Assembly: GCF_022267555.1 (NCBI RefSeq)
Contig: NZ_CP073586.1
Span: forward strand, 2,161,501-2,225,500
Direction: 5' to 3'
DNA from: Proteiniphilum propionicum
GTDB lineage: Bacteria; Bacteroidota; Bacteroidia; Bacteroidales; Dysgonomonadaceae
Length of the DNA stretch: 64,000 nt
This document shows positions 24,795 through 49,048 of the stretch, piece after piece. Every line of letters begins with the position of its first letter. Position 1 is the first letter of the stretch. The translations under genes were made by a program, and so were the position numbers. The notes beneath the pieces were generated by a model. The model worked only from the letters and a program-made list of their open reading frames with translations, was not told the DNA's origin and did no database searches.

Positions 24795-26180
24795 ATGAAT
24801 GATATCATTTGCGCTATATCCACTCCTCCCGGCATGGGAGCCATTGCCATAGTCCGTCTTTCCGGAAAGGGGAGCATTGCCCTTGCCGATACCGTTTTTA
24901 TCTCTCCCTCAGGAAACAGGCTTGCAGAGGCACCTGCCAATACAGTACATTTCGGGCGGATACAGTCTGACGGTGAAGTGCTTGATGAAGTGCTTGTAAC
25001 GGTTTTTCATGCTCCGCACTCCTTCACAGGGGAGGATAGTGTGGAGATATCCTGTCATGGCTCGATATATATTCAACAGAAGATAGTGGAGTTGCTTTTT
25101 AGCAAAGGGGCGCGAATGGCACTTGCAGGTGAGTTTACACGCCGTGCTTTTCGCAACGGGAAGTTTGATCTGAGCCAGGCTGAGGCAGTGGCTGACCTGA
25201 TTTCATCCACATCAAGGGCATCGCACAGGGTGGCCATGAACCAGATGCGTGGTGGTTTCGCTCAAAAGCTTGCCGATCTGCGAGATAAATTGCTGCAGTT
25301 TGTTTCACTGATTGAGCTGGAACTCGATTTTTCAGAGGAGGATGTTGAGTTTGCCAACCGTGATAAGCTTTATGAGCTCACCAAAGAGATTGAAAGGGAA
25401 ATCAATCGGCTGGCCGGCTCTTTCCAGCTTGGTAACGCTATCAAGAGCGGTATCCCCGTTGCAATCATCGGGGAGACCAATGCAGGCAAATCTACCCTGC
25501 TCAATTTGCTGCTTAACGAAGAGAAAGCAATCGTTAGCGATATCCATGGTACCACACGCGATGTAATTGAGGATACCATGAACATAGGAGGAGTCCTGTT
25601 CAGATTTATTGACACCGCTGGTATCCGGCAAACCTCCGACGCTATTGAAACGATGGGTATTGAACGTACGTTCCGAAAGATAGAACAGGCATCCATAGTT
25701 TTGTGGATGATAGACCTTACAACACCACATGAAAAGATCGCAGCGCTGGCAACATCCATTATACCGAAGCTGAAAGACAAGCATGTGATCCTGCTGTTTA
25801 ACAAAGCCGATTTAATTCCGGATGATCAACTTGACGAATTCGGGACTATCCTTCCTGAAGTAGAGGGCGAAAGGCTCTTTATTTCAGCGAAAGCTAACTA
25901 CAATACCGATCGTCTTCAGGAACTGCTGGTAAAAGCTTTTGCTATACCTTCTATTGGCGAAGATGATGTGATTGTCACCAATCTCCGTCATTATGAGGCC
26001 TTGAGCAAAGCACTGGAGGCTATTCGCCGTGTAAAGCATGGGCTTGAAACCGGTATTACCCACGACTTTATTTCACAGGATATCCGTGAGTGCATGTTTT
26101 TCCTTGGCGAAATTACCGGGCAGATCTCCACCGATGAAATTCTGGGCAACATCTTCTCCAAGTTTTGTATAGGCAAGTAA
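24795..26180 (+). CDS. mnmE: tRNA modification GTPase MnmE; last codons are an integration site
   Basis: With MnmG it forms cmnm5U34 in tRNA wobble positions. The 461-residue protein has the N-terminal formyl-THF-binding domain (IVRLSGKGSIALAD, HGSIYIQQKIVELL) and the central GTPase with G1 GETNAGKST (about residue 226), G3 DTAG and G4 NKAD. The C-terminal FCIGK carries the essential Cys of the CxGK motif. The final codons TTT TGT ATA GGC AAG TAA (26163-26180) recur at 44508 and 48036. This marks the 3' end of mnmE as the attachment site of integrative elements; the last five codons may now be supplied by element DNA. A terminator follows at 26222. Confidence 0.95.
   Translation: MNDIICAISTPPGMGAIAIVRLSGKGSIALADTVFISPSGNRLAEAPANTVHFGRIQSDGEVLDEVLVTVFHAPHSFTGEDSVEISCHGSIYIQQKIVELLFSKGARMALAGEFTRRAFRNGKFDLSQAEAVADLISSTSRASHRVAMNQMRGGFAQKLADLRDKLLQFVSLIELELDFSEEDVEFANRDKLYELTKEIEREINRLAGSFQLGNAIKSGIPVAIIGETNAGKSTLLNLLLNEEKAIVSDIHGTTRDVIEDTMNIGGVLFRFIDTAGIRQTSDAIETMGIERTFRKIEQASIVLWMIDLTTPHEKIAALATSIIPKLKDKHVILLFNKADLIPDDQLDEFGTILPEVEGERLFISAKANYNTDRLQELLVKAFAIPSIGEDDVIVTNLRHYEALSKALEAIRRVKHGLETGITHDFISQDIRECMFFLGEITGQISTDEILGNIFSKFCIGK
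26163..26180 (+). repeat. attL: mnmE 3' end, first copy
   Basis: The 18-bp end of mnmE (TTTTGTATAGGCAAGTAA, encoding FCIGK-stop). It matches the copy at 44508 at 15 of 18 bases; the copy at 48036 encodes the same peptide. SGI1 of Salmonella is known to integrate at the same place in trmE/mnmE, which makes the site credible as an attachment core. Confidence 0.75.
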
Positions 26181-26221
26181 ATGCCTTATAATCAATGCTA
26201 TATAAGACTACAAATAATTAC

Positions 26222-26244
26222 AACCCGCTATAATTTAGCGGGTT
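26222..26244 (+). terminator. Rho-independent terminator after mnmE
   Basis: AACCCGCTA (26222-26230) and TAGCGGGTT (26236-26244) form a perfect 9-bp stem with a 5-base loop, followed by TATTGTTTT. It is on the element side of the attachment core, so the element supplies the terminator of mnmE. Confidence 0.7.
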
Positions 26245-26298
26245 TATTGTTTTAAATATTATCGTTACTGCTTGTTAATATGATATGTTATACATACT

Positions 26299-26317
26299 TT
26301 TGTACCGTATTTGTATC
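26299..26317 (+). repeat. Paired TTTGTACC/TTTGTATC arm-type motif, left end
   Basis: Two copies starting 11 bp apart (26299-26306 and 26310-26317), about 120 bp inside the left attachment repeat. The same pair occurs inverted near the right end (44337-44355). These are good candidates for integrase arm-binding sites. Confidence 0.5.
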
Positions 26318-26369
26318 GTGTTCCAAAAAACAACTCAAAAAATAAATATGTTGACCTAAGTGGTATATA

Positions 26370-26409
26370 ATGGAACACTATGAAACACTATGAAACATGA
26401 TGAAACAAA
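26370..26409 (+). repeat. Four tandem 10-bp repeats before the HTH gene
   Basis: ATGGAACACT, ATGAAACACT, ATGAAACATG and ATGAAACAAA follow head to tail, 14 bp before the ATG at 26424. The 10-bp period places all copies on one face of the helix, as expected for a protein-binding array. Confidence 0.55.
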
Positions 26410-26423
26410 AACAGAGATAAATT

Positions 26424-27362
26424 ATGAGCTCAAAATTAGAAGTTCAGAAAAAATGTGAATGGTGCAATAAAATATTTATAGCAAAAACCATGACTACTCG
26501 TTATTGCTCTCATAGATGTAATTCTCAGTCTTATAAACACTCTAAAAGAGAAGAACGGAAGAGGAAATTTAAAGTTTCAGCAATAGATTATAAGACCATG
26601 CAGGAAATCGAACAAAAAGCTGAAAAATATGAAGAAATTAAGAATAAGGACTATCTTACGGTTTCTGAAACTGCTGTTCTTTTAAGTGTTGGGCGAACTA
26701 CTATTTATCGTTATTTACATAAAGGTCTGTTGCTGGCATTTCAAACTAAAGGTAAAACTTTTATTCGTCGTAAGGATATAGATGCATTATTTGAAAACCC
26801 AGAACCATATAAAGCTCGTCCTTTAAATAATAGTAAACCTATATCAGATTTATATACGGTTTCAGAAATAAAAGGCAAGTTTAACGTTACGGATTCTTGG
26901 ATATTTAAAATTGCAAAAGAGAATAACATCCCTAAAACATTGATAAGAGGAAAATCTCATTTTAGTAAAAAGCATATAGAACGTTATTTTGAAAGTAAGG
27001 TTGATAAACTAGTACATGAAATCGATAGCTGGTATAGTGTAAAAGATATTCAGGAAAAGTATAATCTTACAAAAGCTGCAATTTATTCTTTTGTTTCTGA
27101 AAACAATATTCCTCGTAAAAAAATTGGACGTAATGTGTTTTACTCGAAAAATCATTTTGATACAGCAAAAGGATACGAAACATCTGAGTTTTATAGTGTT
27201 AAAGAAGCAATGCAAAAATATAATCTAACTCGTGATGCGCTTTATCATTACATTAAATATCACAAAGTAACAAAAATAAAGGAGGGAAGATATATAAAGA
27301 TTTCAAAACCCGAATTAGATAAATTATTTGAAAAATCAATTGATTATGGCACGAATTCCTAA
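26424..27362 (+). CDS. Zinc-finger protein with four excisionase-type HTH domains
   Basis: A 312-residue DNA-binding protein next to the integrase. The N-terminus has a Cys cluster (CEWCNKIF, then TRYCSHRCN) that looks like a small zinc finger. Four excisionase/MerR-type winged-helix units follow: about residues 75-130 (YLTVSETAVLLSVGRTTIYR), 140-190 (YTVSEIKGKFNVTDSWIF), 205-250 (YSVKDIQEKYNLTKAAIY) and 258-305 (YSVKEAMQKYNLTRDALY). Proteins of this sort upstream of Bacteroidota integrases probably act as recombination directionality factors or regulators. Its last 17 bp overlap the integrase start. Strong A/T bias in codon use contrasts with the chromosome. Confidence 0.75.
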   Translation: MSSKLEVQKKCEWCNKIFIAKTMTTRYCSHRCNSQSYKHSKREERKRKFKVSAIDYKTMQEIEQKAEKYEEIKNKDYLTVSETAVLLSVGRTTIYRYLHKGLLLAFQTKGKTFIRRKDIDALFENPEPYKARPLNNSKPISDLYTVSEIKGKFNVTDSWIFKIAKENNIPKTLIRGKSHFSKKHIERYFESKVDKLVHEIDSWYSVKDIQEKYNLTKAAIYSFVSENNIPRKKIGRNVFYSKNHFDTAKGYETSEFYSVKEAMQKYNLTRDALYHYIKYHKVTKIKEGRYIKISKPELDKLFEKSIDYGTNS

Positions 27363-28449
27363 AGTTACATTGAGAAAACGAGCAGTGGCAAATGGTAAAG
27401 AGAGTCTCTATTTGGACTTTTATCCACCCATTCGAGACCCTTTTTCTATGCGAATGACTCGTAGAGAATCCTTGGGTATCTATATTTATGTGAAACCAAA
27501 AAATGAAACGGAACGCGAATTCAATCAAGATATGTGGATGAAAGCAGAAGTTATTCGTGGGTTAAGGGCGCAATCGATTATAAATGAGGAGTATGATTTT
27601 CTAGATAAAAGTAAGAAACAAGCCGATTTTCTGGCTTATTTTAAAGAAGTTGCTCAAAAGAAAGACCAAAAGTGGATGAAAGTCTATCTTCATTTCAGTA
27701 ATTTTGTCAAAGGGAAATGCACTTTTGGTGAGGTAAATGTGGATTTGTGTAATAAATTCCGGAACTATTTATTGGATGGAAAACAACTGAAACGCCCTAA
27801 AATGAAGATTTCCCAAAATTCTGCAGCAGGCTACTTTTCTACTTTTAGAGCATTGCTGAAAATTGCATATAAGGATAAAATGTTTCGTGAAAACTTAAAT
27901 GATTATTTAGAAAGCATTGAACTTACGGATGTGAAAAAGGAATACCTCACACTGGATGAATTAAAAAAACTGGCAAATACGCCTTGCGATATTCCGGTTC
28001 TCAAATCGGCATCCTTATTTTCCTGCCTTACCGGATTACGGATTAGCGATATTCTTAACTTACATTGGCGGGATATTCTTCCGGCTTCCGAGGGCGGTTA
28101 TTGTATGCGGATACGTACTGAAAAGACCGAAACCGAAACTACTTTACCGATTAGCGACGAAGCTTTGGAGCTTTGTGGCGAGCGACAGGATGGAAAAGTT
28201 TTTGAGGGATTGCGTAGGTCAATGATTTATGAACCGCTGAGAAAGTGGGTGGCAAGCGCAGGAATTACTAAGCATATTACCTATCATTGCTTCCGGCACA
28301 CTTTCGCAACCTTACAAATAGCACTGGGTACGGATATTTACACCGTAAGTAAAATGCTGACCCATAAAAACGTCTCAACCACACAGATTTACGCTGATTT
28401 GGTGAATGAAAAAAAACGGGCGTCTGCAAATAAAATCAGTTTAAAATAA
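27346..28449 (+). CDS. Tyrosine recombinase (integrase) of element 1
   Basis: A site-specific recombinase of 367 residues from the ATG at 27346; a TTG at 27328 is a less likely start. The N-terminal arm-binding part (ARIPKVTLRKRAVANGKESLYLDFYPP) and a SAM-like core-binding domain precede the catalytic domain. All catalytic residues are visible: Arg in LTGLRISDILNLHW (about 229), Lys in TEKTETETTLPI, His-x-x-Arg in YHCFRHTFATL (about 313-316), His in LTHKNVSTTQ, and the Tyr nucleophile in TQIYADL (about 347). It presumably integrates the element at the mnmE 3' end. It starts inside the HTH gene and is followed after 5 bp by a membrane protein gene. Confidence 0.9.
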   Translation: MARIPKVTLRKRAVANGKESLYLDFYPPIRDPFSMRMTRRESLGIYIYVKPKNETEREFNQDMWMKAEVIRGLRAQSIINEEYDFLDKSKKQADFLAYFKEVAQKKDQKWMKVYLHFSNFVKGKCTFGEVNVDLCNKFRNYLLDGKQLKRPKMKISQNSAAGYFSTFRALLKIAYKDKMFRENLNDYLESIELTDVKKEYLTLDELKKLANTPCDIPVLKSASLFSCLTGLRISDILNLHWRDILPASEGGYCMRIRTEKTETETTLPISDEALELCGERQDGKVFEGLRRSMIYEPLRKWVASAGITKHITYHCFRHTFATLQIALGTDIYTVSKMLTHKNVSTTQIYADLVNEKKRASANKISLK

Positions 28450-28454
28450 ACCCT

Positions 28455-29126
28455 ATGAAATCGAATTATTTTGAACATGTCGTAGTTTACCTGTCTGTTT
28501 TGGTAGTTTGCGTGCTTATCGGAGCGGGAGTGAGATTGGTTGTCATTGGCGCAGGTGTGGATGAATTTACGGCGAACACCGTATTTTGGGTAGTTACGGC
28601 GTTTGGCGTGATTGTATATGCCATACTTACGATATTTATTGATGGACTTTTCACGGCTACGCTCAGGAAGTTTTTCCCTAAAATGGCTCAAACTAAAACA
28701 TCTGAAACGCCACCTCTTATTGTGGAAAGTTTAGAAGAAATCCGTGCCGAACAAAAACGACAAATGGAGAATAAAAAGCGAGTAAAGCTTAATTATGTTG
28801 TTCAATATACTCGAAAGGAATTTGCACCCTATGTTTCGGATGCGGATATGGAACTGCTTTGTCGGTACGTGGAGCTGTATGCCGACCAAGTTCCGCTGAC
28901 TGACATTCGGCCCATCAAAGTAAAAGACTTATCCGCTTTGGACTTGTACCACTTCGGCTGGAATATCTGGAAATACCTGAACGTGAGTAAACAGGACGAT
29001 ATTGCTCTGTTTCTTAAAAAAGTTTTTGCTTACAACCTAAACGATATTGAAGTTGATAGCATCAAAAGTCATTTAAAAGATGACCCGAAGAAGGGGAAGA
29101 TTTTGGTGTGGGAGCGATTGTGTTAG
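28455..29126 (+). CDS. Two-helix membrane protein of unknown function, integrase-linked
   Basis: A 223-residue protein not recognised as a known family. Two hydrophobic helices lie at about residues 8-31 (VVVYLSVLVVCVLIGAGVRLVV) and 40-62 (NTVFWVVTAFGVIVYAILTIFI). The remaining 160 residues are a charged cytoplasmic domain with many Lys/Glu and conserved-looking LSALDLYHFGWNIWKYL. It begins 5 bp after the integrase stop, so it is almost certainly in the same transcript. It may help integration, entry control or maintenance of the element, but nothing in the sequence proves a role. Confidence 0.6.
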   Translation: MKSNYFEHVVVYLSVLVVCVLIGAGVRLVVIGAGVDEFTANTVFWVVTAFGVIVYAILTIFIDGLFTATLRKFFPKMAQTKTSETPPLIVESLEEIRAEQKRQMENKKRVKLNYVVQYTRKEFAPYVSDADMELLCRYVELYADQVPLTDIRPIKVKDLSALDLYHFGWNIWKYLNVSKQDDIALFLKKVFAYNLNDIEVDSIKSHLKDDPKKGKILVWERLC

Positions 29127-29235
29127 AATTGGTAGCAGCATCAATTTACATGTAACGGACATAATAGGTTAAGGCACGTAAATACTAAGTCAGATTAAAT
29201 CAGAACTAATTCACCTTAATGTTTCGGCATTAATT

Positions 29236-30750
29236 TTACGCTTTGTTGAGTTTTTTATTTAGCTCATTCTCTAATTCTTTTAGTTCATTTAATTCGCTTA
29301 AATCTACAGTAAATTCTCGATATACATTTTTTTTAATCTGCTCTTTTAATTCTACAAAGTATTTTTCAGGGTTTAAACTTTTACCAAAAACTGCTAAGTA
29401 TAAATATGTTAATCCAATTATTAGTGCTGAAACTATCCAAGTTATTTTCTCCATCACGTCCCATGGAAAAATGAGAACACAGATAAAAAGAACGAGTGAC
29501 ATTATCACAGGAAATGTCCATATATAAAATTTTTTCTTTTTATAAACTTCTTCTAATCTTTCTTCTGCATTTCTTTTTAATGTTGTGATACGTTTAATTT
29601 CTCGAATTACGTCACCGTATTTATCTTGAAGTCCACTTTTTGCCTTCTCTGCCAAAACTTCATCAATGTATTTTTTATTTCTTTCTAGTAATTTTTCTTT
29701 TTCTTGTTCGTTCAGTTTTTTAACACTTTCCAATTGTTGCTTATACGAAATATGAGTTTCTTCAAGTTCCTTTTCTAATAAATCTTTTGTGAAAGATTTG
29801 GCATTTTCTTTTATGATAGATGGATTTTTTGAATCAATAACTCCTGTAAATTTTCGCTCTACTAAAACTTCCATTGCTTTATTTTGACGTGAAAAGTCTT
29901 CTGTAATCTCACTTATCCCTGATAATACTGCTTGTAACTCGTGTTCATTAATTGAATTATCATGTTGTTTCAATTTCAAAAAGCTGACAAAACTTTTATA
30001 ATCATCATCAGTTCGAGAGTAATACTTTAACAAAAGTCCCATCCAATGACTTGGTAGTAGTGTTATAGGTTGGTTTGCAGAGTGTTCATTATCCCATTTT
30101 TTTAACTTTTGGTCAGTCGTAATTAAGTAGTACTTTGTGTCTTGAATATTCTTATTGTTTTTGGCACGTTTTTTTTCAATAAAAAAATAATTTTGTGCGT
30201 CAAATCTATGCGACTGTTCAAATCCATATATCTTAGTGGTTTCTATTTCATCTTTATATTTTTCAATGATATTGAAAATTTCATTATCCGATTCATCGTA
30301 GGGGATTTTGTAATCTTCCAGTATGTTAAATCTTTTACATAGAGATTCGTACTCTCCGATTATATAAGCATAAAAAGAATCAAAACCATATGTAATTCTG
30401 CCATTTCTCCAAAAATGGTAGTACTCATATAGACTTGGGTTAGAGCAGTATTTGCTGAATATTTTAGGATCTATTCTCCCAAATGGAAGTTTTTTAAGAT
30501 TATTAATATGATACTCAATAGTATCTATAAACTCTTTTTTTGAAAACTTAGAGATAAGTAATTCTTGTCCACTGTCGATGCATTTTTTGAAAAAAACCAA
30601 AGTTCGTTCTTTACGAGTATTCCCATTAATCCCTAGAGCTCTATACAATAAGTTGTTGTCTAGATAGAATTGTTTGTTTCTAAGCGAAGCCAGATATGTA
30701 TTGTCCCCATTGGAATTATTAACGACAAGAGCATACTCAATGCAATAACT
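29236..30750 (-). pseudogene. PIN-domain/coiled-coil/membrane protein, C-terminal part cut off by IS
   Basis: The frame is open from the IS target duplication (30751-30755) to 29236 but has no proper start. It encodes SYCIEYALVVNNS followed by a PIN-like nuclease pattern: FYLDNNLLYRALG (first Asp), SKKEFIDTIEYH, and YYLITTDQKLKKWDN (last Asp). Then come a long coiled coil (about 130 residues) and two membrane helices (FYIWTFPVIMSLVLFICVLIF and IVSALIIGLTYLYLAVFGKSL). Joined to the piece at 32424-33011 across one copy of TATTA, the frame is continuous and gives a 700-residue protein. The intact protein would be a membrane-tethered nuclease-like effector; its role, possibly defensive, is inference. 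Confidence 0.75.
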
Positions 30751-30755
30751 TATTA
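30751..30755 (+). repeat. Target site duplication TATTA, left copy
   Basis: TATTA flanks the IS at 30751-30755 and again at 32424-32428. Removing the IS and one copy restores one open frame. Confidence 0.8.
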
Positions 30756-32423
30756 CTTAAAAATCTCATTTAAAATTCCCAACTCAAATTAATAGTTTTC
30801 AAAGCGGAATTTCTCTTTTTTTCGAGAGATACCGTTTTATTTTCTTTTCATCTTCACTGTTTCTTGCACGTTTAACGTGTTGATTTACTTTTTATGGTGG
30901 CATTTTTATATATATTAACATTATCACTCTTCCAAGGCATGGCAATTCCTTGTCATAAACCCTTTTACGACACGAAAGATGGCGATGGACGATTAAGTGA
31001 AAATCCGTCATCCGGTCATCGTTGTCGTTATTCGCTGCTCAAAATCACGCCACCCCGCTTTTCGGTAATACTCCTTAGGCATTTTTACCGTGACCTGCCT
31101 GCCGGATTTCACCACTTTACCCGGCACTCGGATAAACCATTCTCGGAAGGTAGAGTGCTCTTGGCGCCAAACCCAAAAGTCGCCCCGGTATCGCATGAGC
31201 ACCGATAAACTGTAGGCAAATGACGAAAGTTGCCAAAGAATATCGTTTACCCAAAAAATCATGCGTGATGGTTTTTCCCGCACAAAGCGAGTTTTTGGTT
31301 TGCTCGATCCAATTCTCACTCTCTGATCGGGATCCATAAAGGGTATGGAGCTGCAAGGCATCCAATCCTTTCAGGTTCGAGCAATAGCAAAAGTACTCAT
31401 ACTCGGGTACAAATTGTTTTTCGCCAAAATAATCGACTTCAACCATTTGCTTTATGATGCGCACGGCATAAAACATGCGGGGATTCCTCCAACCGCTACA
31501 TTGATGTATAAACCGGCAGGTCGCCGTCCGTGGGTCAACCGGTTGCCATGTCTGCCCGGCAAGCAAATCTTTCAGGTTTTTCAGCTTTACTTTCACCAAA
31601 TATTCATGTTTGCCCTCTTCCAGCAAATCAAACAATCCACCATTGAAAAAGCCGCTGTCTGCCCTGAAAAAAACCTTCTCCACCTTTTGGGGAAGAGCGG
31701 CCAAGGTTTCTTTGACAAATTCACAAACGCCGTTTGAGGTGTAGCTTGAACCCGGGCGGAGCCACGAATTGACAAGCAGTTTCATCTCCGTGACGAAACA
31801 TAAGATGGGGTGATAGCTTTTCGCGCCCTTTTTATGCGAGTTGTAACCCACTTCAGCTCCTTGTTGGTTGCCGTAAACGGTAAATGTGCTTGAGTCGCAA
31901 TCAAGCGTCACGCGTTTTAACCCGCAACGGGAAACTTGCAAGCCGGTAAAATCCAATAACAACTCGTGAAGCGAACGGGCGCCCCTTTCACCCAAACCTG
32001 TCAAATGGCGGCGTATGGTGTCCTCGTCAATGTTCTTGGGTAACTTCAACAAGCGGGAAACCAAGGCGTCAAAGGTGAAATTTTCAATCCGCTTCAAACG
32101 GTGAACACCGCACAACGAAGCCAACAGGACACTTGAGAGTATTTGGGCTGTACTGAAACGGCTTGCATTGTGCCGGGTGGTTGGGAAAAGATGTTCCAAC
32201 CGACGATAAATGCCGCAATGGTTGATAAAATCAGAGGTTACGCTTAACCCTGAATATGACGTTAATTGTTCTGAACTGAACTCTTTCTTTACTGAACTGG
32301 CAGTAAATGAGATTTTTTTACTATTTTTGTATTGCATGTGTCGGGTGAGTGTTATTTTTTATTTAACACCTTAAAGATAAATACTTTATCTGACACATGC
32401 AACTTTTATTTGAGACTTTTAGG
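30756..32423 (-). mobile_element. IS1380-family insertion sequence (1668 bp)
   Basis: Bounded by imperfect terminal inverted repeats: CTTAAAAATCTCATTTAAAA at the low end and, read on the minus strand, CCTAAAAGTCTCAAATAAAA at the high end (16 of 20 identical), with a 5-bp TATTA duplication outside. Size and single transposase gene fit IS1380-type elements of Bacteroides such as IS612-IS614. It interrupts the PIN-domain gene. The 250 bp at its low end (30756-31007) are non-coding. Confidence 0.85.
31008..32337 (-). pseudogene. IS1380-family transposase, frameshifted
   Basis: The first 362 codons are a DDE transposase: LDCDSSTFTVYGNQQGAEVGY (first Asp), VFFRADSGFFNGGLF (second Asp) and SRSESENWIEQTK (Glu). 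The expected C-terminus (FWVNDILWQLSSFAYSLSVLMR and on to about residue 443) is in the +1 frame. The switch falls in a run of six A on the plus strand (31253-31258): five would give HDFWVND, six give HDFLGKR, and the frame then ends early at 31117. This is most simply a one-base insertion that disables the transposase, though a sequencing error in the homopolymer cannot be excluded. Confidence 0.75.
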
Positions 32424-33011
32424 TATTATTTTAAAAAGAGCTTTGTTTTTTTCTGTATCTTCCCATGTCAAGAAATCATTTATTATTTGAATCTCGTCTC
32501 GATCAAAAATAGTTGAATCGATAGTAATCTCATTTTTTTCAGGTGTCGGTTTAATAATCTTTGAATATAACTTTATGTTAGTGTTTAATAATTCATATAA
32601 ATACTTTTGGATTATATTTTCAACATTCTTTTTTGTTGTTGTGTAATTAAACCTTTCAATGAAAATTTGAATAAAATTGTCAAAATTATTTTCAACCTTT
32701 TTGTTTTTTAGGAATTGAAATCTTTCGTTAGACAACGAAATTAATGCTTGTTCAGCATTATTTCCAGTCATTTGTACATGAAAGGATTTTGTTTTTTGAT
32801 TGTTAATTAAACTATGTATTTCTTCGTAAGAAAATGATAAACTAAATATTCGTTCTGTCTCAGAAATAATTTCATACACAGTCAATTGTTTATTTTCATT
32901 TTCAACAAAAACAGATTCAATTATTTTTCTTTGAATGGTTTTACTTGAAATTGATTTTGCTTCTTCTGCATAAATTATAGCTGAAGTTCTAATTATCGTT
33001 TTTACATCCAT
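32424..33011 (-). pseudogene. N-terminal part of the IS-interrupted PIN-domain gene
   Basis: From the ATG at 33011 the frame runs 196 codons to the IS junction (…KNKALFKII) and then 5 codons into the IS (PKSLK-stop). The fragment is helical with no recognised domain: MDVKTIIRTSAIIYAEEAKS at the start and TIFDRDEIQIINDFLTWEDTEK near the break. Read on into 30750 after removal of the IS, it continues as FKIISYCIEYAL in frame. It is the amino-terminal partner domain of the membrane PIN protein. Whether this 201-residue fragment is still made is unknown. Confidence 0.7.
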
Positions 33012-33281
33012 AACCCATAAAGGTAAAATTTATGATTTCACAATAGTTTGACGGCTAACTGTTCCCCAAAAAATCGCATAAGCTCATCTAATTTTTGCAA
33101 ATTCAAAGATACAACATCCCCCCAACTCAGTCAATACTTATAGGCAAATTTTATCAACACAAATCACAAACAATCAGAATTTTCACTACTTCCGGTGTTT
33201 TTCTTTGTGTTTTTGTAAGTGTTGCTAATCACAGGCCAATCACTCATTTCATTTGCACCGTAATCATCAAAATCAATTATT

Positions 33282-33638: not shown

Positions 33639-33640
33639 GA

Positions 33641-39866: not shown

Positions 39867-42718
39867 AAGAAATAGAATATCAGAAGAAATATGTCCGACG
39901 ATTAGTTGATACGGCAACCGAAATTTTGACAGATGAAGACAGAGATACCGGTACGATTGTATTTAAAGCTCCCACCGGCTCCGGCAAAACCTATATGGTT
40001 TCGCAAGCTATGACACACATTGTTAAAGAAAATCCCAACGTTGCTTTTGCTTTTATTTGGATTTCGGTAAACAAATTGCATGAACAAAGTTTAAATAGTT
40101 TGTCTCGTTACTTTGAAGATGAACGTTTGCTTGAATGTCTGACAAACTCAGAACTGAACAATAATACCATTGAGCAAAACGAAATAATGTTTGTAAATTG
40201 GGAAAGTATAAATAAAGAAAATTCTTTATTTCGGGTGGATAATGAACTGAATTGGAATTTACAGACAGTGGTGGAAAACACCAAAGACGAGGACAAAACC
40301 ATCGTATTGCTTATTGATGAAAGCCATCGAAATGCTAAAACAGACAAGTCACAAGAGTTAATTGATATTATTTCTCCCCGTTTGGTAATAGAAATTACTG
40401 CAACTCCAAAACCATCAACAGGCACTTTAATTGACATTCCTTTGCAAGCCGTAATTCGCGAAGGAATGATAAAAAAAGAGATACAGATAAATGCAGCCAA
40501 GCAAGAGCAGGTAAAAAGCAATAAAGATTTGCTTTTGTTTGCCTTACGCAAACGCAAACAACTACAAACAGCATATCAAAGCTTGGGTACAAATATTAAT
40601 CCACTATTACTTATCCAAATCCCCAACAAGAAAGCAAATGACATAATACAGCCCGAAGATGAAATTATAGAGATATTAAGTAATCAAGGTATTAGTGTTC
40701 AAAGTGGGAAATTAGCACTTTGGCTTTCAGAAGACAAACGAAATAAAGAAGATGTTGAAAGTAATATAAGTCCGGTAGAAGTGTTGATTTTTAAGGAAGC
40801 TATAGCATTGGGATGGGATTGTCCACGAGCAAGTATTCTATTTCTGCAACGAGAGTGGAATAACGAACGATTTGAATTTAACATTCAAACGCTTGGGCGA
40901 ATTATGCGTATGCCTGAACAAATGCATTATGAAGACAAGCCAGAATTAAATGTTGGCTATGTATATTCTGCTTCAAATGCTTTTACCATAGTAGAAGAAC
41001 TTGCAAAAGACTATGTTAGTGAACAAAAACTTATTATTGATAATGAAATTTATAATAAAAGACCACAACTTTTTAATGAACATATCCGTAGAAAAAGAGA
41101 ACTAACAAGACTTTCGGGTGATTTTAAAACTGTATTTAATGAGGCTGCGAAAGCAAACAATCTGAAAGAAAAGATAAATACAAATGTTACTCAAATATCA
41201 AAACAGATAAAACTTTCAGGAAAAATCGAAGAATTGGATAAAGAACAGGATGTCGCTTTTGACAATTCTAGAACAATAGAAAAGAGCAAGGCTGAAATTC
41301 AAAATAGTTATGACACATTCATACGACAGATTGTGGCACCTTATGAAGTGGCACGCTCCCAAAATATTTTAAAAACCACTATTAGATCTTGGTTTAAAAA
41401 TGAATTTGGAATTGGCGATGAAGACATTATCCAACTTATTGTGATGAGCCAAAGTAAGGGGAATTATGGTAATTTTAAGACAACAATAGAAGAAGCGAAG
41501 GATTTATATAAAAATTTGCCAACAAAAACAGATGAGACAATAACTAATCCAAATTGGGAAGTTCCAACGTTTGTGAATATCTTTTCAAATTTTGAAGAAG
41601 TGAAACCTTCTACAAAATCAATATTAAAACAGGAAGATACGAATTGTTTTTTAGCAAAAACAAATAAAAACGGTAATTCGGAATTATCCAAACCTGAAAA
41701 AGATTTCATTGCAAGGATGGAGGCTTCTGATGATTATTTGCAATGGTGGTTTAAGAATGGAAAGGGCGAAGCAAAATATTTTAGCATTGCCTACAAGAAG
41801 GAAGATGGTTTTTTGTATGGTTTTTATCCTGATTTCATTCTGAAAACAAAAAAAGAAACAATCATTGTTGAAATAAAGGATGATAAGGATTTCAAGGCGG
41901 ACAACTACTATAAATTATTAGCCGGAAGAGATTATTTAACACGTCTGGATACAAATTCAGAAGAAAAAACACGGTTTTATATCCTGTCCCCAGTTGATTA
42001 TTTTGATTTTTTCAAACACCTGAATGATATGAATTTAGATAGCTTTGAAGCTATCTATGAAAGACGTTTAACAAAATTCATCAAGAGCCAACAACTTCAA
42101 ATTTCGGCAAAAATAGAAAGTAAAGAGAAACTGTCTAAAAGTGAGGAGGAATACAAAGAATTGTTTGCAGAGTACGAAAACTCCTTGTCCAAATTGGAGG
42201 ACGAGGCTTTTAAACGTGAGTTAGCAGAGTTGGAACTGGAAGAAGCAAGAAAAATAAATGAACAATACAAGTCAAATATCGAAATTTTGTTCAAACATTC
42301 TGACAGTATCAAGAAAACAGAAGATGATGCTGTTGAAATCTCTGTGCCAACTCCTTTTAATATTTGTATTTTGGGAGAGGTTTCTGATGAAGCTTTAATT
42401 AGAAATCAACTGAATAGACATTTTCAGAAACTTGGAGTTGATACAATTGATTGGTCCGTTGATTTTTATGACAATGCAAAACTGCAAAACAGCAAAATAC
42501 TTCGTTCTTTGCAGAAAGGACAAAGCAAATATTCATTAATTGTTACCGGACAAATTTTTCATCATTCTGGAAAAGGAAATGAGAAAGCTAATATTATTGC
42601 CGAATTGAAAAATGGCAAATACATTCCGCATATAATAGGATGTAGCCCAAAGGAATTACTAACCCCCGATACTCTGACGGAAGTAATTCATAAATATCTA
42701 ACTCAAATAGGTAATTAA
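39863..42718 (+). CDS. Type III restriction endonuclease Res (system 1) with extra C-terminal domain
   Basis: A 951-residue SF2 translocase-nuclease. Walker A APTGSGKT is at residues 36-43, the DExH box LLIDESHRN at about 150, and motif VI-like NIQTLGRIMRMPE follows. The PD-(D/E)xK nuclease is GFYPDFILKTKKETIIVEIKDDKDF at about 650-675. A coiled coil then spans about 745-810. The final about 130 residues (from FNICILGEVSDE to the end, with IVTGQIFHHSGKGNEKANI) form an extra alpha/beta domain not usual in Res subunits. It pairs with mod upstream (4-bp overlap), and the AlbA_2 gene starts 5 bp after it. Confidence 0.88.
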   Translation: MKEIEYQKKYVRRLVDTATEILTDEDRDTGTIVFKAPTGSGKTYMVSQAMTHIVKENPNVAFAFIWISVNKLHEQSLNSLSRYFEDERLLECLTNSELNNNTIEQNEIMFVNWESINKENSLFRVDNELNWNLQTVVENTKDEDKTIVLLIDESHRNAKTDKSQELIDIISPRLVIEITATPKPSTGTLIDIPLQAVIREGMIKKEIQINAAKQEQVKSNKDLLLFALRKRKQLQTAYQSLGTNINPLLLIQIPNKKANDIIQPEDEIIEILSNQGISVQSGKLALWLSEDKRNKEDVESNISPVEVLIFKEAIALGWDCPRASILFLQREWNNERFEFNIQTLGRIMRMPEQMHYEDKPELNVGYVYSASNAFTIVEELAKDYVSEQKLIIDNEIYNKRPQLFNEHIRRKRELTRLSGDFKTVFNEAAKANNLKEKINTNVTQISKQIKLSGKIEELDKEQDVAFDNSRTIEKSKAEIQNSYDTFIRQIVAPYEVARSQNILKTTIRSWFKNEFGIGDEDIIQLIVMSQSKGNYGNFKTTIEEAKDLYKNLPTKTDETITNPNWEVPTFVNIFSNFEEVKPSTKSILKQEDTNCFLAKTNKNGNSELSKPEKDFIARMEASDDYLQWWFKNGKGEAKYFSIAYKKEDGFLYGFYPDFILKTKKETIIVEIKDDKDFKADNYYKLLAGRDYLTRLDTNSEEKTRFYILSPVDYFDFFKHLNDMNLDSFEAIYERRLTKFIKSQQLQISAKIESKEKLSKSEEEYKELFAEYENSLSKLEDEAFKRELAELELEEARKINEQYKSNIEILFKHSDSIKKTEDDAVEISVPTPFNICILGEVSDEALIRNQLNRHFQKLGVDTIDWSVDFYDNAKLQNSKILRSLQKGQSKYSLIVTGQIFHHSGKGNEKANIIAELKNGKYIPHIIGCSPKELLTPDTLTEVIHKYLTQIGN

Positions 42719-42723
42719 TAACT

Positions 42724-44196
42724 ATGCTTACCCACTCCCAGCTTAAATATATTCTTTCCAACACCGAAAGTGCTCACATTGAACGGACAACTTCCACGGA
42801 CAATATGGACAAGTTCTGTCAAGCTATCTGTGCCTTTTCCAATGATGTTTCGGGAAGTGGGAAGAACGGTTATTTGATAATAGGCGCACACGATAATGGA
42901 AAACTGTCCGGATTAAAAGTAGATGATAAGCTGTTGCTGAAAATATCAAATATCCGTACAGACGGTAATATCCTGCCGCAACCCGTGATGACAGTCGAGA
43001 AGTTCTCTTTCAACGATGGCGATGTTTTAGTTGCCGAAGTTCAGCCTTCAGAATTTCCACCCGTTCGCTATCGTGGGCGTATTTGGGTGCGTGTTGGTCC
43101 ACGTAAAAGCATCGCCACTGAAGCGGAAGAAAAAATATTGACCGAACGTCGGTTGTCCAACGTACACACGTTTGACGCAATGCCCTGTTTGGGTACAACA
43201 CTTGATGATTTGGATATAGCCATCATCAAAAAAGAGTACCTGCCCAAAGCAGTTGCCGAAGAGGTGCTTTCTGAAGATAAACGTACTATTGATAAGCAAC
43301 TGGCTTCACTCGGACTGTATGATTTGCGTTATAATTGCCCGACTAATGGAGCTATTGTTCTCTTTGGAATAAATCCGGAGCGTTATTTACACGGCTCCTA
43401 TATTCAGTATGTTCGTTTCAAAGGAAAAGATCGTGCCGGAGACATTATTAATGAACATAAGTTTAGTGGAAATCTTTGTCGTGAGTTGCCTAAGATTGAC
43501 ACTTTCATAGAAACAAGTATTGCACAGAAACGCCCCATTCCCGTTAGCGTACTGCGTGAAGAAACTTTTTCGAAGTATCCCTATTGGGCAACTCGTGAGC
43601 TTTTAATGAATTCCATCATGCACCGTGATTATGAAACCAATGCTCCCGTGCAGTTTTATGAATATGATGATCGAATAGAGGTGCAAAATCCTGGCGGATT
43701 GTACGGAAAGGTAACGCCGGATAACTTCCCGAATGTCAGTGACTACCGCAATCCGTTTATTGCTGAAGCAATGAAGGTATTGGGTTATGTCAATCGTTTC
43801 AGTCGTGGTGTGTATCGAGTGCAAAAGGAATTAATGGAAAACGGAAATGGGAAGGCTGTTTTTGACTTCTCATTAGTAACGGCATTTAGGGTAACAGAGA
43901 ATATTTCTGAGAAATATTTAGATGAAGGGTTTGGAGCGGAAATCACCCAAGAAAAGCCCAAGAAAAGCCCAAGAAACGTCCAAGAAACGTCCAAGAAACG
44001 TCCAAGAAACGTCCAAGAAGAAATTGTCGAAGCGATAAAAATAAACCCCACAATTACACGTAAAGAGTTGGAAAATCAATTGGGATATTCTCATGGAAAA
44101 ATTAAATACCATATTTCTCAACTAGTCAAACAGGGTGTTATCAAACACGAAGGAGCTACAAAATCAGGGAAATGGATAATTATAAATAAGGATTAG
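42724..44196 (+). CDS. AlbA_2/HATPase regulator with phase-variable repeat, linked to RM system 1
   Basis: A 490-residue protein of the Schlafen-like ATP-binding transcriptional regulator type. The N-terminal AlbA_2 domain is at about residues 14-135 (ESAHIERTTSTDN, GYLIIGAHDNG, RGRIWVRVGPRKSIAT). A GHKL-like HATPase_c_4 domain spans about 285-400 (TRELLMNSIMHRDYE, YDDRIEVQNPGGLYG). A winged HTH forms the end (about 432-490, ITRKELENQLGYSHGKIKYHISQL). Between the last two lies an 11-bp tandem repeat (43946-44022), so copy-number change would alter the frame and remove the wHTH. The gene starts 5 bp after res, so it belongs to the RM operon and may regulate it. Confidence 0.8.
   Translation: MLTHSQLKYILSNTESAHIERTTSTDNMDKFCQAICAFSNDVSGSGKNGYLIIGAHDNGKLSGLKVDDKLLLKISNIRTDGNILPQPVMTVEKFSFNDGDVLVAEVQPSEFPPVRYRGRIWVRVGPRKSIATEAEEKILTERRLSNVHTFDAMPCLGTTLDDLDIAIIKKEYLPKAVAEEVLSEDKRTIDKQLASLGLYDLRYNCPTNGAIVLFGINPERYLHGSYIQYVRFKGKDRAGDIINEHKFSGNLCRELPKIDTFIETSIAQKRPIPVSVLREETFSKYPYWATRELLMNSIMHRDYETNAPVQFYEYDDRIEVQNPGGLYGKVTPDNFPNVSDYRNPFIAEAMKVLGYVNRFSRGVYRVQKELMENGNGKAVFDFSLVTAFRVTENISEKYLDEGFGAEITQEKPKKSPRNVQETSKKRPRNVQEEIVEAIKINPTITRKELENQLGYSHGKIKYHISQLVKQGVIKHEGATKSGKWIIINKD
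43946..44022 (+). repeat. 11-bp tandem repeat inside the AlbA_2 gene (6 copies plus a partial)
   Basis: Units are CCCAAGAAAAG (twice), CCCAAGAAACG, TCCAAGAAACG (three times) and a degenerate TCCAAGAAGAA. The unit length is not a multiple of three, so gain or loss of one copy shifts the frame; the two other frames stop at 44036-44038 and 44061-44063. The repeat reads as the same 11-residue peptide in each frame. Confidence 0.85.
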
Positions 44197-44336
44197 TTCT
44201 TATGCTGGAAAAGGCAAAGAAAACAATAAAGAAAAGAAAAACTGTAAAAAGGTGTTTTTTGAACTTAAGATAGGAAATGCAATATGTTTATCTATAGTGT
44301 TTTACAGTGGTTTATGGTTAAAACTCAAGGAAATGC

Positions 44337-44355
44337 GGTACAAACTCGGTACAAA
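44337..44355 (-). repeat. Paired GGTACAAA arm-type motif, right end of element 1
   Basis: GGTACAAA at 44337-44344 and 44348-44355, 11 bp apart, is the reverse complement of the left-end pair at 26299. It lies about 155 bp inside the right attachment repeat. Confidence 0.5.
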
Positions 44356-44507
44356 TTAGGAAATGTAATTGTCTGATATACATCGAATAAGCCTAAAAAA
44401 CGGAGTTTCTTTTGTAACTATCTGATAATCAAAAACAAGTAAATAGAATGTGAACGTTAATTTGTATCGGTAAAAGAATAAATATCTAATATTCAATTAT
44501 TTGCACT

Positions 44508-44525
44508 TTCTGTATAGGAAAATAA
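44508..44525 (+). repeat. Second copy of the mnmE 3' end (att junction between elements)
   Basis: TTCTGTATAGGAAAATAA encodes FCIGK-stop, like the end of mnmE, with 15 of 18 bases identical to the copy at 26163. It has no coding context of its own: upstream codons do not match MnmE. It marks the right end of element 1 and the left end of element 2. Confidence 0.75.
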
Positions 44526-45243
44526 GATTAATTGTTTGATTATTAGCTAATTAAGTAGATATATAACGCAAATTATTATCCACAAATCAATTAGAGTATT
44601 TTCTCTTGTTTTCGTTTGTTATCAGCATTTTCCGTGCATTTGCATAAATTTTACTGAATTTTGTCCCCTCATTTGTCCCCGAAAGTAGATGCGAGGGACA
44701 AATTCTTGTCCACCAAGCCGATTCAGCCATTGATTCCTATAAACTAAAATTAACTAAAATAAAATTATAGTAAACATCATTTCATAAAACAGTTTGGAAT
44801 ATTTATCTGCGTTTGCAGATGAATACTATAACATTGACATACAATGGTATACAATAAGCATATATTATGGCTAAAGTTACAACAGATGGTACTTTGGTTA
44901 GAATGTTCTAAAAATCGGTATGCTCGTTCTTGCGCCATGCCTCCATATTCATGAAAGCTGATACGCGGTTGGTTTCCTCGCCGTTCTTCTCCTGACGGCC
45001 TACTGCTTACAAAGGTGACGTGTCGCTTACAATGGCGAAGGTATCTAACGACGTGTCGATATACAAGAGTGGAAGCATCATTTCTATAACAGGACTGGAG
45101 CAAGTGAGCATACTGCGCAACTTGCTTTCGCAGTGTTTTTGGTAAAACAGCTATGGCAACGTCTGAAAGCTGAGCGTAAATGAGTTTTTGCAGTCAAAGG
45201 AGAAAAGAGTCTGCAAGCCCATAGCCAACAGACTCTCTCTTGT
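44526..45243. other. Left part of element 2: att arms and a decayed coding remnant
   Basis: TTTGTCCCC pairs at 44660-44668 and 44672-44680, then GGGACAAA at 44695. A 6-bp hairpin ATCTGC-gttt-GCAGAT lies at 44804-44819. On the minus strand about 45082-44905 reads as a broken coding fragment (MLPLLYIDTSLDTFAIVSD, one stop, then EETNRVSAFMNMEAWRKNEH), probably the end of a lost accessory gene of unknown family. No intact gene is visible. Confidence 0.4.
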
Positions 45244-45734
45244 TTATTCACAGATGACAACGTCATCCTTGTACTCTGTCACTTCCTTGCCGTTGATGAG
45301 TTGGATAATGACCTCACTGCCCAAGTCCTCGACAATCGTTTCCTCTGTCTGACCTCTTTGGGGAAGAAGTCGCTCTCGTCATGCACATAGAATATGCCGC
45401 AACCTGGTTCAATCTCTCGCCAACTGATGGAAAGTTTGTTGCCAAGTTCCTTGTTCACCTCTTCAAAGAACAAGTCGCAGGAAGACCACGCACTTTCGGT
45501 GTCAAAGGACAATAGTGCACAATCGTATTCCACGCTCTTGTCATAATCTGCTCAATAGATATTTCCCCTTACCGAGATGCCTTTCTTCTCGTAGTCGATA
45601 CGATAGTGTTCTGCCAAGCGATACAGATACACATCCTTACTATTCACCTCCAAATCTTGGAGTGTCTTCCAAAGATCTGCCACGGCTCTTCGTTAGCCTG
45701 TCACCTTGTACTGAGTGTCGCAAATGTTAGCCAT
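45244..45734 (-). pseudogene. Decayed gene of a Bacteroides conjugative-element accessory type
   Basis: The minus-strand frame from the ATG at 45734 reads MANICDTQYKVTG, a stop, then VADLWKTLQDLEVNSKDVYLY, a second stop at about 45555, and SVEYDCALLSFDTESAWSSCDLF. After FYVHDESDFFPKE a frameshift near 45355 is needed to reach TEETIVEDLGSEVIIQLI and a final TEYKDDVVICE-stop. So there are two in-frame stops and one shift. The peptide resembles small uncharacterised proteins carried by Bacteroides conjugative transposons; I do not know a function. It shows that element 2 is decaying. Confidence 0.6.
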
Positions 45735-46125
45735 AAGATAAAATTTTTATTTTCTTCCCTTATGTAGAACCAACTACCATCGGGATTGATTAAAGAATTA
45801 GTTGCCCCAAAAGCTGTTATGGCTCATCATGGCAAGGTTTTGCCGTCAAATACTACCTCTGACACAGTCAGAGCGTGGAGATTTTGCGGACAAACCACAG
45901 GCACCGACCTTGCAGGATGAATGCCACAACAGGTACCTTTGCAACACAATTCTTATCAAAGCCCGATAGGTTGTGTGATTAATCTACAAAACAGGGAGTA
46001 AAGCGTATAAATTGCCTTCAAAATAAAGGAATACTATATAAACTAGAAAAATTATCAACTAAAACATGGTGGTTTCGAGAAAAGATTATACCTTTGCAGT
46101 TGATATTTACTCTATAATATAAATT
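45735..46125. other. Intergenic region with abiE promoter
   Basis: No gene is supported. TACCTTTG at 46089-46096 fits the -7 consensus and lies 30 bp before the abiEi ATG. The rest holds no clear repeat or coding signal. Confidence 0.4.
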
Positions 46126-46896
46126 ATGAATTTAGTTACAGGTTCAAAGATAAACCAATTATTGATGAATACTGACCAAAATGGACTGATATTCTCTGCG
46201 TGGCTCAAGACACAGGGATATTCAGACCAGTTGCAAAAACAGTATCGCGACTCGGGATGGCTCACATCGCTATCTCAAGGTGTGATGTATAGAACTGGCA
46301 GCAAATTATCAGCTTACTCTGCGTTGGCAACCTGTAACCTGCAAACCGGTGCAAAATATCGTATAGCAGCTCACTCTGCACTGGAGTATGCGGGATTCAA
46401 TCACTATGTGCCTATGGGGAAGCCAACGTTGTCAGTAGCACTCAGTCCTACGAAGAAACGTCCTATGTGGATGAAGGACGAAATGTTTGATGTGATATTC
46501 CGTCCTTTCTATACAGAGGTATTCCCCACTCCAGAAGTCATACTTAAAGAGGAGGAGCATGGCGTACTGTATGTATCTGCTCCCGAACAGGCTTTCTTGG
46601 AATGTCTGCTGCTTGCCCCAAAATTCTATGATTATATGGATTTGTATTATATCATGGAGCAGCTTACAACATTGAGAAGTGACGTAATTCAGCGATTGCT
46701 TGAAAGCGTAAAGAACTTCAGCATCAAGAGAATGTTCCTATACATGGCGGAGAAAGCAGGTCACTACTGGTTTGAAGAGCTTGACCTTGAAAAGATAAAT
46801 ATAGGAACATCAAAGATACAACTGGTTCCCGATGGTACCTATAGTTCAAAGTATATGATAACCATACCTAAAGCATTGAACAGCTATGAAGGATAG
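46126..46896 (+). CDS. AbiEi-type antitoxin (type IV toxin-antitoxin / abortive infection)
   Basis: A 256-residue protein with an N-terminal winged-HTH-like domain (WLKTQGYSDQLQKQYRDSGW, followed by LSQGVMYRTGSKLSAYSALATC) and the AbiEi antitoxin domain behind it (AAHSALEYAGFNHYV, VSAPEQAFLECLLL). AbiEi proteins repress their own operon and neutralise the AbiEii nucleotidyltransferase without direct contact. Its stop overlaps the next start by 11 bp, so the pair is coupled. The pair is intact in the otherwise decayed element 2, as addiction modules often are. Confidence 0.82.
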   Translation: MNLVTGSKINQLLMNTDQNGLIFSAWLKTQGYSDQLQKQYRDSGWLTSLSQGVMYRTGSKLSAYSALATCNLQTGAKYRIAAHSALEYAGFNHYVPMGKPTLSVALSPTKKRPMWMKDEMFDVIFRPFYTEVFPTPEVILKEEEHGVLYVSAPEQAFLECLLLAPKFYDYMDLYYIMEQLTTLRSDVIQRLLESVKNFSIKRMFLYMAEKAGHYWFEELDLEKINIGTSKIQLVPDGTYSSKYMITIPKALNSYEG

Positions 46897-47788
46897 ATAC
46901 AAGAAACAAGTGTTATTGCTCATACGCATTATGCCATCGGTTTATAAGATTAAAGAGTTTGCTGTGCATGGAGGAACTGCTATTAACCTGTTCCACAAAA
47001 ACATGCCTCGTTACAGCGTTGATATTGACCTCACATATATCTCTTTAGCAGACAGAGAATCGAGTCTGAAGTCTATCAATCAGAGATTGCTTGAGGTAAA
47101 GAACAGCATAGAAAAGAGTATTCCCGGCATTATGGTGAAGCATAAACCTGAAGTCTGGAAATTGCTCTGTACGCTCGGTGATGCCACGGTCAAGATAGAA
47201 GTCAATGGAACAAAACGAGGTGTCATAGGCAACCCTGTGGATTTACCCCTTTGCGAGAAAGCGCGAAATGAGTTCAACATGGGATGTAAGGCTCGCACAG
47301 TATCATTCAGCCAATTATATGGTGGCAAGATAACAGCTGCACTCAGCCGTCAGCATCCTCGTGATTTGTTCGACTGCAAATATATGGAGATAGACACCTT
47401 TGAAGAGGTGAAGGACGGCTTCCTTTTGTGCTTGCTTGGAAGCGACAAACCGATAGTTGAATCGCTTCAGCCAAATGCTGTTGATCAGACAGAAGCACTG
47501 GAGAACCAATTTGAGGGCATGACCGACATCCCTTTCAGTTATATCGACTACAAGGAAGCCAGAGAAAATCTACTTGAATTAGTAAACGGCAATCTGTGTA
47601 ATACAGATAAAGAGTTCCTTCTATCCTTTGAGTCTGGTTTGCCGGATTGGGGTAAGTGCTCAGCAGGAGACTTATCAGCATATCCTTCCGTGCAATGGAA
47701 ACTGCTTAACATCGGAAAACTAAAAAAGAGCAATCCGAAGAAATTTGAAGATGGTATAGCAAAACTGAAAGAGTGTTTAAGGCTATAA
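46886..47788 (+). CDS. AbiEii/AbiGii-type nucleotidyltransferase toxin
   Basis: A 300-residue toxin of the DNA polymerase beta-like nucleotidyltransferase superfamily. FAVHGGTAINLFHKNMPRYS holds the GG(S/T) motif, and SVDIDLTYI the metal-binding DxD. Later blocks (VKIEVNGTKRG, LPLCEKARNEF, QLYGGKITAALSRQHPRDLFD with KYMEID) match AbiEii. AbiEii toxins modify tRNA or other targets and stop growth on phage infection. The gene overlaps the AbiEi gene by 11 bp. Its last residues run to 47788, 248 bp before the third mnmE-end copy. Confidence 0.85.
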   Translation: MKDRYKKQVLLLIRIMPSVYKIKEFAVHGGTAINLFHKNMPRYSVDIDLTYISLADRESSLKSINQRLLEVKNSIEKSIPGIMVKHKPEVWKLLCTLGDATVKIEVNGTKRGVIGNPVDLPLCEKARNEFNMGCKARTVSFSQLYGGKITAALSRQHPRDLFDCKYMEIDTFEEVKDGFLLCLLGSDKPIVESLQPNAVDQTEALENQFEGMTDIPFSYIDYKEARENLLELVNGNLCNTDKEFLLSFESGLPDWGKCSAGDLSAYPSVQWKLLNIGKLKKSNPKKFEDGIAKLKECLRL

Positions 47789-47933
47789 CGATATATGCCG
47801 ACAAAAGAAAAAATGATGTTCATTGCCATAGAGCAGAGTTTTTCTCTTTTGAAGTCAAAAGCAGTTTACGTCACTCAAAAAACGGAGTTTCCTGACTCTT
47901 GTTTGTAGATAGTAGGCTTATCTTTATAAGATT

Positions 47934-47954
47934 TTTGTCCCCCATTTGTCCCCC
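47934..47954 (+). repeat. TTTGTCCCCC arm-type pair, right end of element 2
   Basis: TTTGTCCCCC at 47934-47943 and 47945-47954, starts 11 bp apart, similar to the pair at 44660-44680. Both are in the same orientation, unlike the inverted pairs of element 1. Confidence 0.45.
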
Positions 47955-48035
47955 GCATATTTGAGACAGTTTTATAATAACTGATATTCAAAAACTTACG
48001 AGCAAGAAATAAGTATTGCTTGGGGTAAATAGATG

Positions 48036-48053
48036 TTCTGCATCGGAAAGTAA
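48036..48053 (+). repeat. Third copy of the mnmE 3' end (outer attR)
   Basis: TTCTGCATCGGAAAGTAA again encodes FCIGK-stop, but with different synonymous codons from the other two copies, so it did not arise by simple duplication. It is the right boundary of element 2 and perhaps the original chromosomal end of mnmE. Confidence 0.72.
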
Positions 48054-49033: not shown

Positions 49034-49048
49034 AATAACATACGCACA

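Follow-up and report, generated by a model that had tools for sequence, protein, structure and literature searches.

In a 64,000-nucleotide stretch of the Proteiniphilum propionicum genome (contig NZ_CP073586.1, positions 2,161,501 to 2,225,500; hereafter, the window), two genomic islands very probably stand one behind the other at the 3′ end of the gene mnmE. The first is an integrative mobilizable element (IME; element 1) and the second, behind it, is a decayed element (element 2). The original prediction, made from the sequence letters, had proposed that three copies of the mnmE end mark two integrative elements at one attachment (att) site, and this is supported by homology breakpoints at the copies, by unlike terminal repeats in the two elements, and by matches of element 2 to a conjugative element in another assembly of the genus. 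The evidence comprises the anatomy of the region, its boundaries, the kinship of the element ends, and the recurrence of the site in relatives. Coordinates are collected in Table 1; labels such as G032, C175, and L122 are our handles for genomes, contigs, and loci.

The copies of the 18-base core, each encoding FCIGK and a stop codon, are exactly where the original prediction placed them. The peptide with its stop occurs at only these three places in all six frames of the window, always on the plus strand. In the genome as a whole (3,906,720 bases), the pattern TTYTGYATHGGNAARTAR has exactly three matches, all on the plus strand, and the reversed control pattern has none; the count is still three with TTYTGYATHGGNAARTRR, which also accepts TGA as the stop. 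The chance expectation is 0.0005 per window and 0.03 per genome at equal base frequencies, and 0.0002 for 22 kb of one strand at the composition of the window. Our recount agrees that copies 1 and 2 share 15 of 18 bases (positions 3, 12, and 15 differ); the figure is 14 for copies 1 and 3 (3, 6, 9, and 12 differ) and 15 for copies 2 and 3 (6, 9, and 15 differ). That the copies differ at third codon positions only is partly by construction, given that the peptide was required. MnmE codons precede copy 1 only, and the claim that copies 2 and 3 lack them was thus confirmed.

The ends of element 1 are defined by homology. Its left end is matched from the core onward by L094 (75%), L095 (70%), and G013 (82%), and its right end by G010:C78 (85%) and G013 (68%), both matches breaking off with the final base of copy 2 (44525); G268 matches the right end across 65 bases, reaching 44524. 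G013 holds a 3.2-kb decayed cousin between two cores. The core at which the G010 right end terminates (L122, G010:C78:1-333) is identical to copy 2. This right end adjoins DNA without mnmE, and the mnmE of G010, on another contig, has no such neighbor in the 20 kb read.

The terminal repeats are unlike between the two elements and alike at both ends of each. TTTGTACC occurs five times in the window, three of them within the two 300-base ends of element 1, and TTTGTCCC nine times, five of them within the two 300-base ends of element 2. In a random control with about 2000 pairs of 300-base stretches, four pairs have a common octamer that occurs two or more times in both stretches, which is also true of the ends of element 2. 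Among relatives, TTTGTACC is found at both ends in G037, G268, and G406 and at the right end in G010 (where the right end alone was available for the count) and G013, and TTTGTCCC is found at both ends of an element in the same-genus assembly G032 (three and five copies).

This G032 element (~82 kb) starts at an mnmE end, has its second core 81.7 kb away, and carries genes for a TraG-type ATPase and a coupling protein. A block of element 2 (44639-44711), some 130 bases from the core, matches the left end of the element on G032:C175 at about the same distance from its core, and is also present past the second core of G406. Stop-to-stop pieces of 44911-45983 resemble genes that the G032 element carries in its right part. 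Apart from an AbiEi/AbiEii pair, element 2 is decayed sequence, and no integrase or transfer gene was found among the scanned genes of 44526-48035. The earlier assignment of the integrase side to element 1, which has a tyrosine integrase, and of decay to element 2 therefore holds, and element 2, with its att ends kept and its integrase and transfer genes lost, has the features of a cis-mobilizable element (CIME). To judge from these sequence matches, a G032-like conjugative element is the likely source of element 2, whose ancestor may have entered by a G032-type integrase. We read copies 2 and 3 as bounding one element that would have been placed by an integrase other than that of element 1. 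Because the left end and the decayed genes of element 2 match the G032 conjugative element, two integrase lineages have probably used the mnmE site of the window.

Element 1 has the features of an IME. Its own integrase lies beside the att site (copy 1 is 1.15 kb before the integrase gene), and its ends are direct repeats, with positions 4-11 identical in copies 1 and 2. It encodes a relaxase (PF03432) and a MobC/NikA-like protein, and no conjugation-apparatus or type IV secretion system family was found among the 15 larger open reading frames (ORFs) scanned against Pfam. The remaining scanned ORFs encode a second helix-turn-helix (HTH) protein, a 198-aa protein, and proteins without a family. 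The integrase combines Arm-DNA-bind_5 and SAM_5 domains, which we take to be usual in Bacteroidota. Element 1 may be capable of excision and transfer today. Two candidates for an excised circle of this kind were rejected: the Bacteroides uniformis plasmid pBUN2 (L159, NZ_AP019726.1) carries a relative of element 1 (integrase 71%) at a secondary plasmid site with imperfect cores, and pFunn3_1 has no good core. A viral origin was likewise set aside, as a viral contig scan with the integrase, which detects close relatives only, gave six pattern matches and no relative.

Table 1. Features of the mnmE region (window coordinates)
Feature	Position	Strand	Basis or remark
mnmE, intact target gene	24795..26180	+	461 aa; MnmE_helical and TrmE_N; sole full-length copy in genome
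Core copy 1 (attL of element 1 and mnmE end)	26163..26180	+	encodes FCIGK-stop
Element 1, integrative mobilizable element, 18.3 kb	26181..44507	+	gene content; ends set by homology
TTTGTACC at element 1 ends	26299 (+), 44337 (-), 44348 (-)
HTH/excisionase-family protein, 312 aa	26424..27362	+	HTH_17; TIGR01764 over its cut-off
Tyrosine integrase, 373 aa	27328..28449	+	Phage_integrase, Phage_int_SAM_5, Arm-DNA-bind_5
DDE transposase gene within element 1	31117..32337	-	DDE_Tnp_1_4
VapE-like helicase	33641..34864	+	PF05272
Toprim primase	35107..36009	+	Toprim_2, Zn_ribbon_DnaG
MobC/NikA-like accessory protein and MobA/VirD2-type relaxase	36217..37511	+	PF21983, PF05713; PF03432
Element 1 cargo: type III methyltransferase, ResIII subunit, Schlafen-type protein	38211..44196	+
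Core copy 2 (element 1 right end and element 2 left end)	44508..44525	+	FCIGK-stop; homology breakpoint
Element 2, 3.5-kb remnant keeping both ends	44526..48035	+	left-end and decayed-gene matches to G032 element; TTTGTCCC at ends
TTTGTCCC at element 2 ends	44660, 44672, 44695 (-), 47934, 47945
AbiEi/AbiEii pair, element 2 cargo	46126..47788	+
Core copy 3 (element 2 right end)	48036..48053	+	FCIGK-stop; separate homology breakpoint at 48059
Segment 3, further foreign DNA: AbiEi-like gene, type III methyltransferase and restriction subunit	48054..54853	+

Integration behind mnmE is recurrent. The integrase of element 1 was searched in 393 genomes of the order, 56 of which had a match at 1e-65, and in a named genome collection, which yielded 30 loci. 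Among the 37 loci with an integrase of at least 50% identity and the locus given (L063-L085, L092-L104, and L120), the integrase lies 3′ of mnmE in 27, and in 26 of these (all except L082) a match to the HTH gene lies between mnmE and the integrase; MnmE ends in FCVGK in L073, L083, and L085. Of the remaining ten, L070 and L078 stand as second elements where mnmE is already occupied, six reach a contig end (L071, L092, L093, L094, L099, and L120; L094 begins 12 bases before the core), L079 has a near-core (one mismatch) with no mnmE in view, and L084 has neither core nor mnmE. It should be noted that the 37 omit further matches without a locus, three of which (G204, G296, and G297) were later found at mnmE, that G330:C1:2785868 and G327:C9 were left out of the count of mnmE loci, and that some loci may be one genome under two names (the integrases of L066 and L098 are identical). 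Of 39 genomes of the genus, 7, including that of the window, have at least two cores on the same strand of one contig. In G204, an integrase (A, 53-54%) follows mnmE, and 24.8 kb on there is a near-core (one mismatch) with a second, related integrase (B, 65%, partial), the two pointing the same way; G297 resembles this stack, but its core is poor (five mismatches).

No mnmE was seen near integrases of less than 50% identity in the available DNA of 22 loci (L086-L091, L105-L119, and L121). Within the genus, four integrases of 34-42% identity also sit at mnmE ends (G002, G031, G032, and G037), and thus more than one integrase lineage uses this gene end. Three of the four form a separate, supported clade in an integrase tree of 58 rows, including that of the window (of 66 integrases, 9 that were duplicates, partials, or near-copies had been removed). 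A single origin of mnmE targeting was rejected, as the tree needs nine label changes, seven of them forced by starred branches, a figure that is overstated in that several unlabeled rows are contig ends or second elements. The named integrase relatives are Bacteroidota, except for two bins labeled Firmicutes and Paceibacterota and one weak match (25%) in Hutsoniella. The integrases in these bins (L092 in Firmicutes UBA4845 and L093 in Paceibacterota) are 100% and 98% identical to that of element 1, and L092 begins inside the core; we take both for mis-binned or mobile DNA.

The contents of islands at this gene end vary. Pfam families on other mnmE-end islands include DnaB helicases, a terminase, and an ArsA-type ATPase, and PADLOC matches at 1e-10 were found in only 2 of 10 proteins from other islands here, so we rejected the idea of a defence-only hotspot. 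Given these few PADLOC matches and the non-defence families, defence genes such as those in the window are not typical cargo at this site. The mnmE islands of G031:C4 (L123) and G002:C1 (L056) carry DnaB-type helicases, that of G031 also with a terminase large-subunit match. Phage-satellite-like elements may use the same mnmE site. In G268:C11 (L152/L167), an element at mnmE with 16.4 kb between its cores carries the ArsA-type ATPase.

The arrangement in the window probably arose as follows. With the mnmE 3′ end serving as the attachment site, a G032-like conjugative element (with its own integrase lineage and TTTGTCCC repeats) would have integrated first, restoring the gene end. Its interior, including the integrase and transfer genes, would then have been lost, so that the two ends and the AbiE pair survived in a remnant of 3.5 kb. 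A mobilizable element of the second lineage (with TTTGTACC repeats) would subsequently have entered the same gene end by site-specific recombination, giving the order mnmE, element 1, core, element 2, core. This order of arrival we infer from decay only.

Integration would swap the right half of the core at mnmE, and the incoming right half must then still encode the end of the protein, which would explain why the copies differ at synonymous positions. Left and right cores agree throughout positions 4-11 in 10 of the 11 pairs compared (window copies 1 and 2, G002, G013, G021, G031, G032, G037, G406, G204, and Bacteroides finegoldii), the exception being G268, and the exchange point may lie within these positions. 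The right cores of B. finegoldii and G204 start with TGC, suggesting that only the right half supplied by an element must encode the protein end, its left half being free. For SGI1 (Salmonella genomic island 1), the portions of PMC2297512 and PMC9035990 consulted report that substitutions at positions 9 and 12 always stay in the right repeat and that the host gene supplies the last 9 bases, or right half, of attR.

Several observations weigh against a stack of two islands as we have described it. The original prediction had proposed looking in relatives for mnmE joined directly to the DNA beyond a junction; no relative examined has such a joint with the DNA just beyond copy 2 or copy 3, and neither an excised circle nor an empty site of element 1 was seen. 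Within core positions 4-11, copy 3 differs from each of the other two window copies, and the two cores of G268, where recombination perhaps took place across mismatches, also differ there. The terminal repeat was spotted before it was counted, and its distribution is irregular: the left end of G013 has none, G002 and G031 carry TTTGTTACC on the right but not on the left, B. finegoldii has TTTGTACC on the left and TTTGTCCC on the right, and G204 is mixed. The right end of element 2 resembles G032 in a 21-base stretch (E 0.006) and the repeat only. Finally, the G032 contig may be of another species than its bin, because the MnmE end on G032:C175 is 95% identical to that of the window over 42 residues, as against 80% for the complete MnmE of the bin.

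Among other explanations, the same parts would stand in the same final arrangement if element 1 had come first and the ancestor of element 2 had later entered at its right core and then decayed. We consider this unlikely, since element 2 is decayed while the scanned genes of element 1 are open, and since nearly identical element 1 integrases (98-100%) in other assemblies suggest recent movement, both of which are indirect arguments. Still less probable, in our view, is arrival of 26181-48035 as a single unit, with copy 2 left inside it from an accretion that took place earlier in another host. Composite transfer of an IME with a CIME is described as possible in the sections consulted of PMC5704250, and copy 3 is unlike copies 1 and 2 inside positions 4-11, as such a history would allow; however, the repeats match at the two ends of each unit rather than at the outer ends of the composite, and in G010 and G013 the homology to element 1 runs to 44525 and no element 2 follows. 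We find it barely credible that copies 2 and 3 arose by chance or are fragments left by a duplication of mnmE: the sequence is just 18 bases long, but the expectation of 0.0002, the lack of MnmE codons before both copies, the homology breakpoints at the copies, and the doubled cores in relatives all speak against it.

A further possibility would add to the two-island stack rather than replace it. The island extent originally given, 26163-48053, takes in both elements and leaves out foreign DNA that, by its sequence matches, continues to about 54.85 kb (segment 3), and this segment could be a third stacked element that has lost its right core. Its three large genes have no match in 20 mnmE loci of the genus, its homology begins within six bases of copy 3 (48059-49026 is 94.6% identical to a restriction-modification [RM] locus in G012:C90, the match beginning five bases past copy 3), and its right edge cuts into YkuD2, with a remnant at 54676-54815 that matches G007 and runs into this gene. 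On the other hand, no core with three or fewer mismatches was found on the plus strand of 48054-54853 (the minus strand has a single three-mismatch match, at 48148), the first 300 bases have neither main terminal repeat, there is no integrase, and G012 has no core beside the same DNA. On balance we doubt that a third element is present, while allowing it an appreciable chance. The AbiEi-like gene of the segment (48135-49029) has no partner, and about 0.73 kb of G012:C90 (L156) is missing after 49026; by eye, the absent part holds an AbiEii-like gene. At 54782-54853, the C terminus of YkuD2 extends ~23 residues beyond the stop of its relatives, apparently by fusion of segment 3 to the gene end. 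In 11 of 20 loci of the genus (up to 20 kb 3′ of mnmE), homologs of the YkuD or E1/E2 dehydrogenase genes (54.8-60.5 kb in the window) lie downstream, and thus the stretch from mnmE to YkuD2 is an insertion zone.

Two islands stacked at mnmE document the 3′ end of this gene as an attachment site in Bacteroidota. Within one genus it is used by mobilizable, conjugative, and terminase-bearing elements, and in B. finegoldii it is used by an island closely related to element 1. Searching for the 18-bp core offers an easy means of finding such islands and locating their true ends, and the unlike terminal repeats point to a means of assigning each layer to the integrase that placed it. Tentatively, and with more doubt than conviction, we suggest that integrase lineages of the Bacteroidota, at least two and perhaps three in number, have converged with the SGI1 lineage on the codon-constrained MnmE C terminus (FC[IV]GK-stop) as a landing site. 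The right half of each element's core would re-encode the protein end, recombination across synonymous mismatches would be harmless, elements could cross between hosts with unlike mnmE ends, and the queue would be a layered record of earlier hosts.

The known system closest in target is the SGI1 family of Gammaproteobacteria. SGI1 integrates in the last 18 bp of thdF/trmE, according to the part of PMC2297512 consulted, in agreement with the original prediction that such islands enter at this place, and tandems of SGI1 and of unlike islands occur at trmE (PMC2297512, PMC9035990, likewise in part). The likeness thus extends to the gene end, the core length, and the tandems. The original comparison with SGI1-type islands stands for the 18-bp target and fails for the backbone and the phylum, here Bacteroidota: TraG, TraH, TraN, and Rep_3, given as backbone in the portion of PMC5704250 used, are not among the Pfam matches of the 15 element 1 ORFs. 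By the gene content of its scanned ORFs, element 1 is not an SGI1-family element.

Element 1 is more closely matched in B. finegoldii (NZ_OY725936.1), where mnmE, an HTH protein, the integrase (71%), a helicase, a primase, MobC, and a relaxase follow in the same order, with a right core 31.0 kb on that is 15/18 identical; the cargo differs (type I RM-like genes, a kinase, and HipA-type proteins, by annotation). The Bacteroides mobilizable element CP103138.1, which we take from its gene content to be Tn4555-like (the name is absent from the record), has an integrase 48.9% identical, an HTH protein before it, a mobilization protein, and a primase-type protein, within another gene set. In it, one three-mismatch match to the mnmE core lies in the resistance gene region of the plus strand (up to three mismatches allowed), and none was found on the minus strand (up to two). 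Element 1 thus shares neither a close integrase nor the target with Tn4555, insofar as CP103138.1 represents it. Two preferred sites are listed for Tn4555 in the part of PMC5704250 consulted.

The trmE entry in the table of that IME review names SGI1 and MGIVchHai6, and no published mnmE/trmE island in Bacteroidota was among the matches listed in our search of mainly non-subscription literature, which is weak evidence of absence. The review, as far as consulted, also models the accretion of an IME onto a decayed CIME that keeps its att sites (PMC5704250). The window resembles this model in having a decayed element with its att sites beside a later element at the same site, and differs from it in the host phylum and in two integrase lineages that are separable by their terminal repeats. 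IME-CIME accretion is a known kind of event, and the window is a new case of it.

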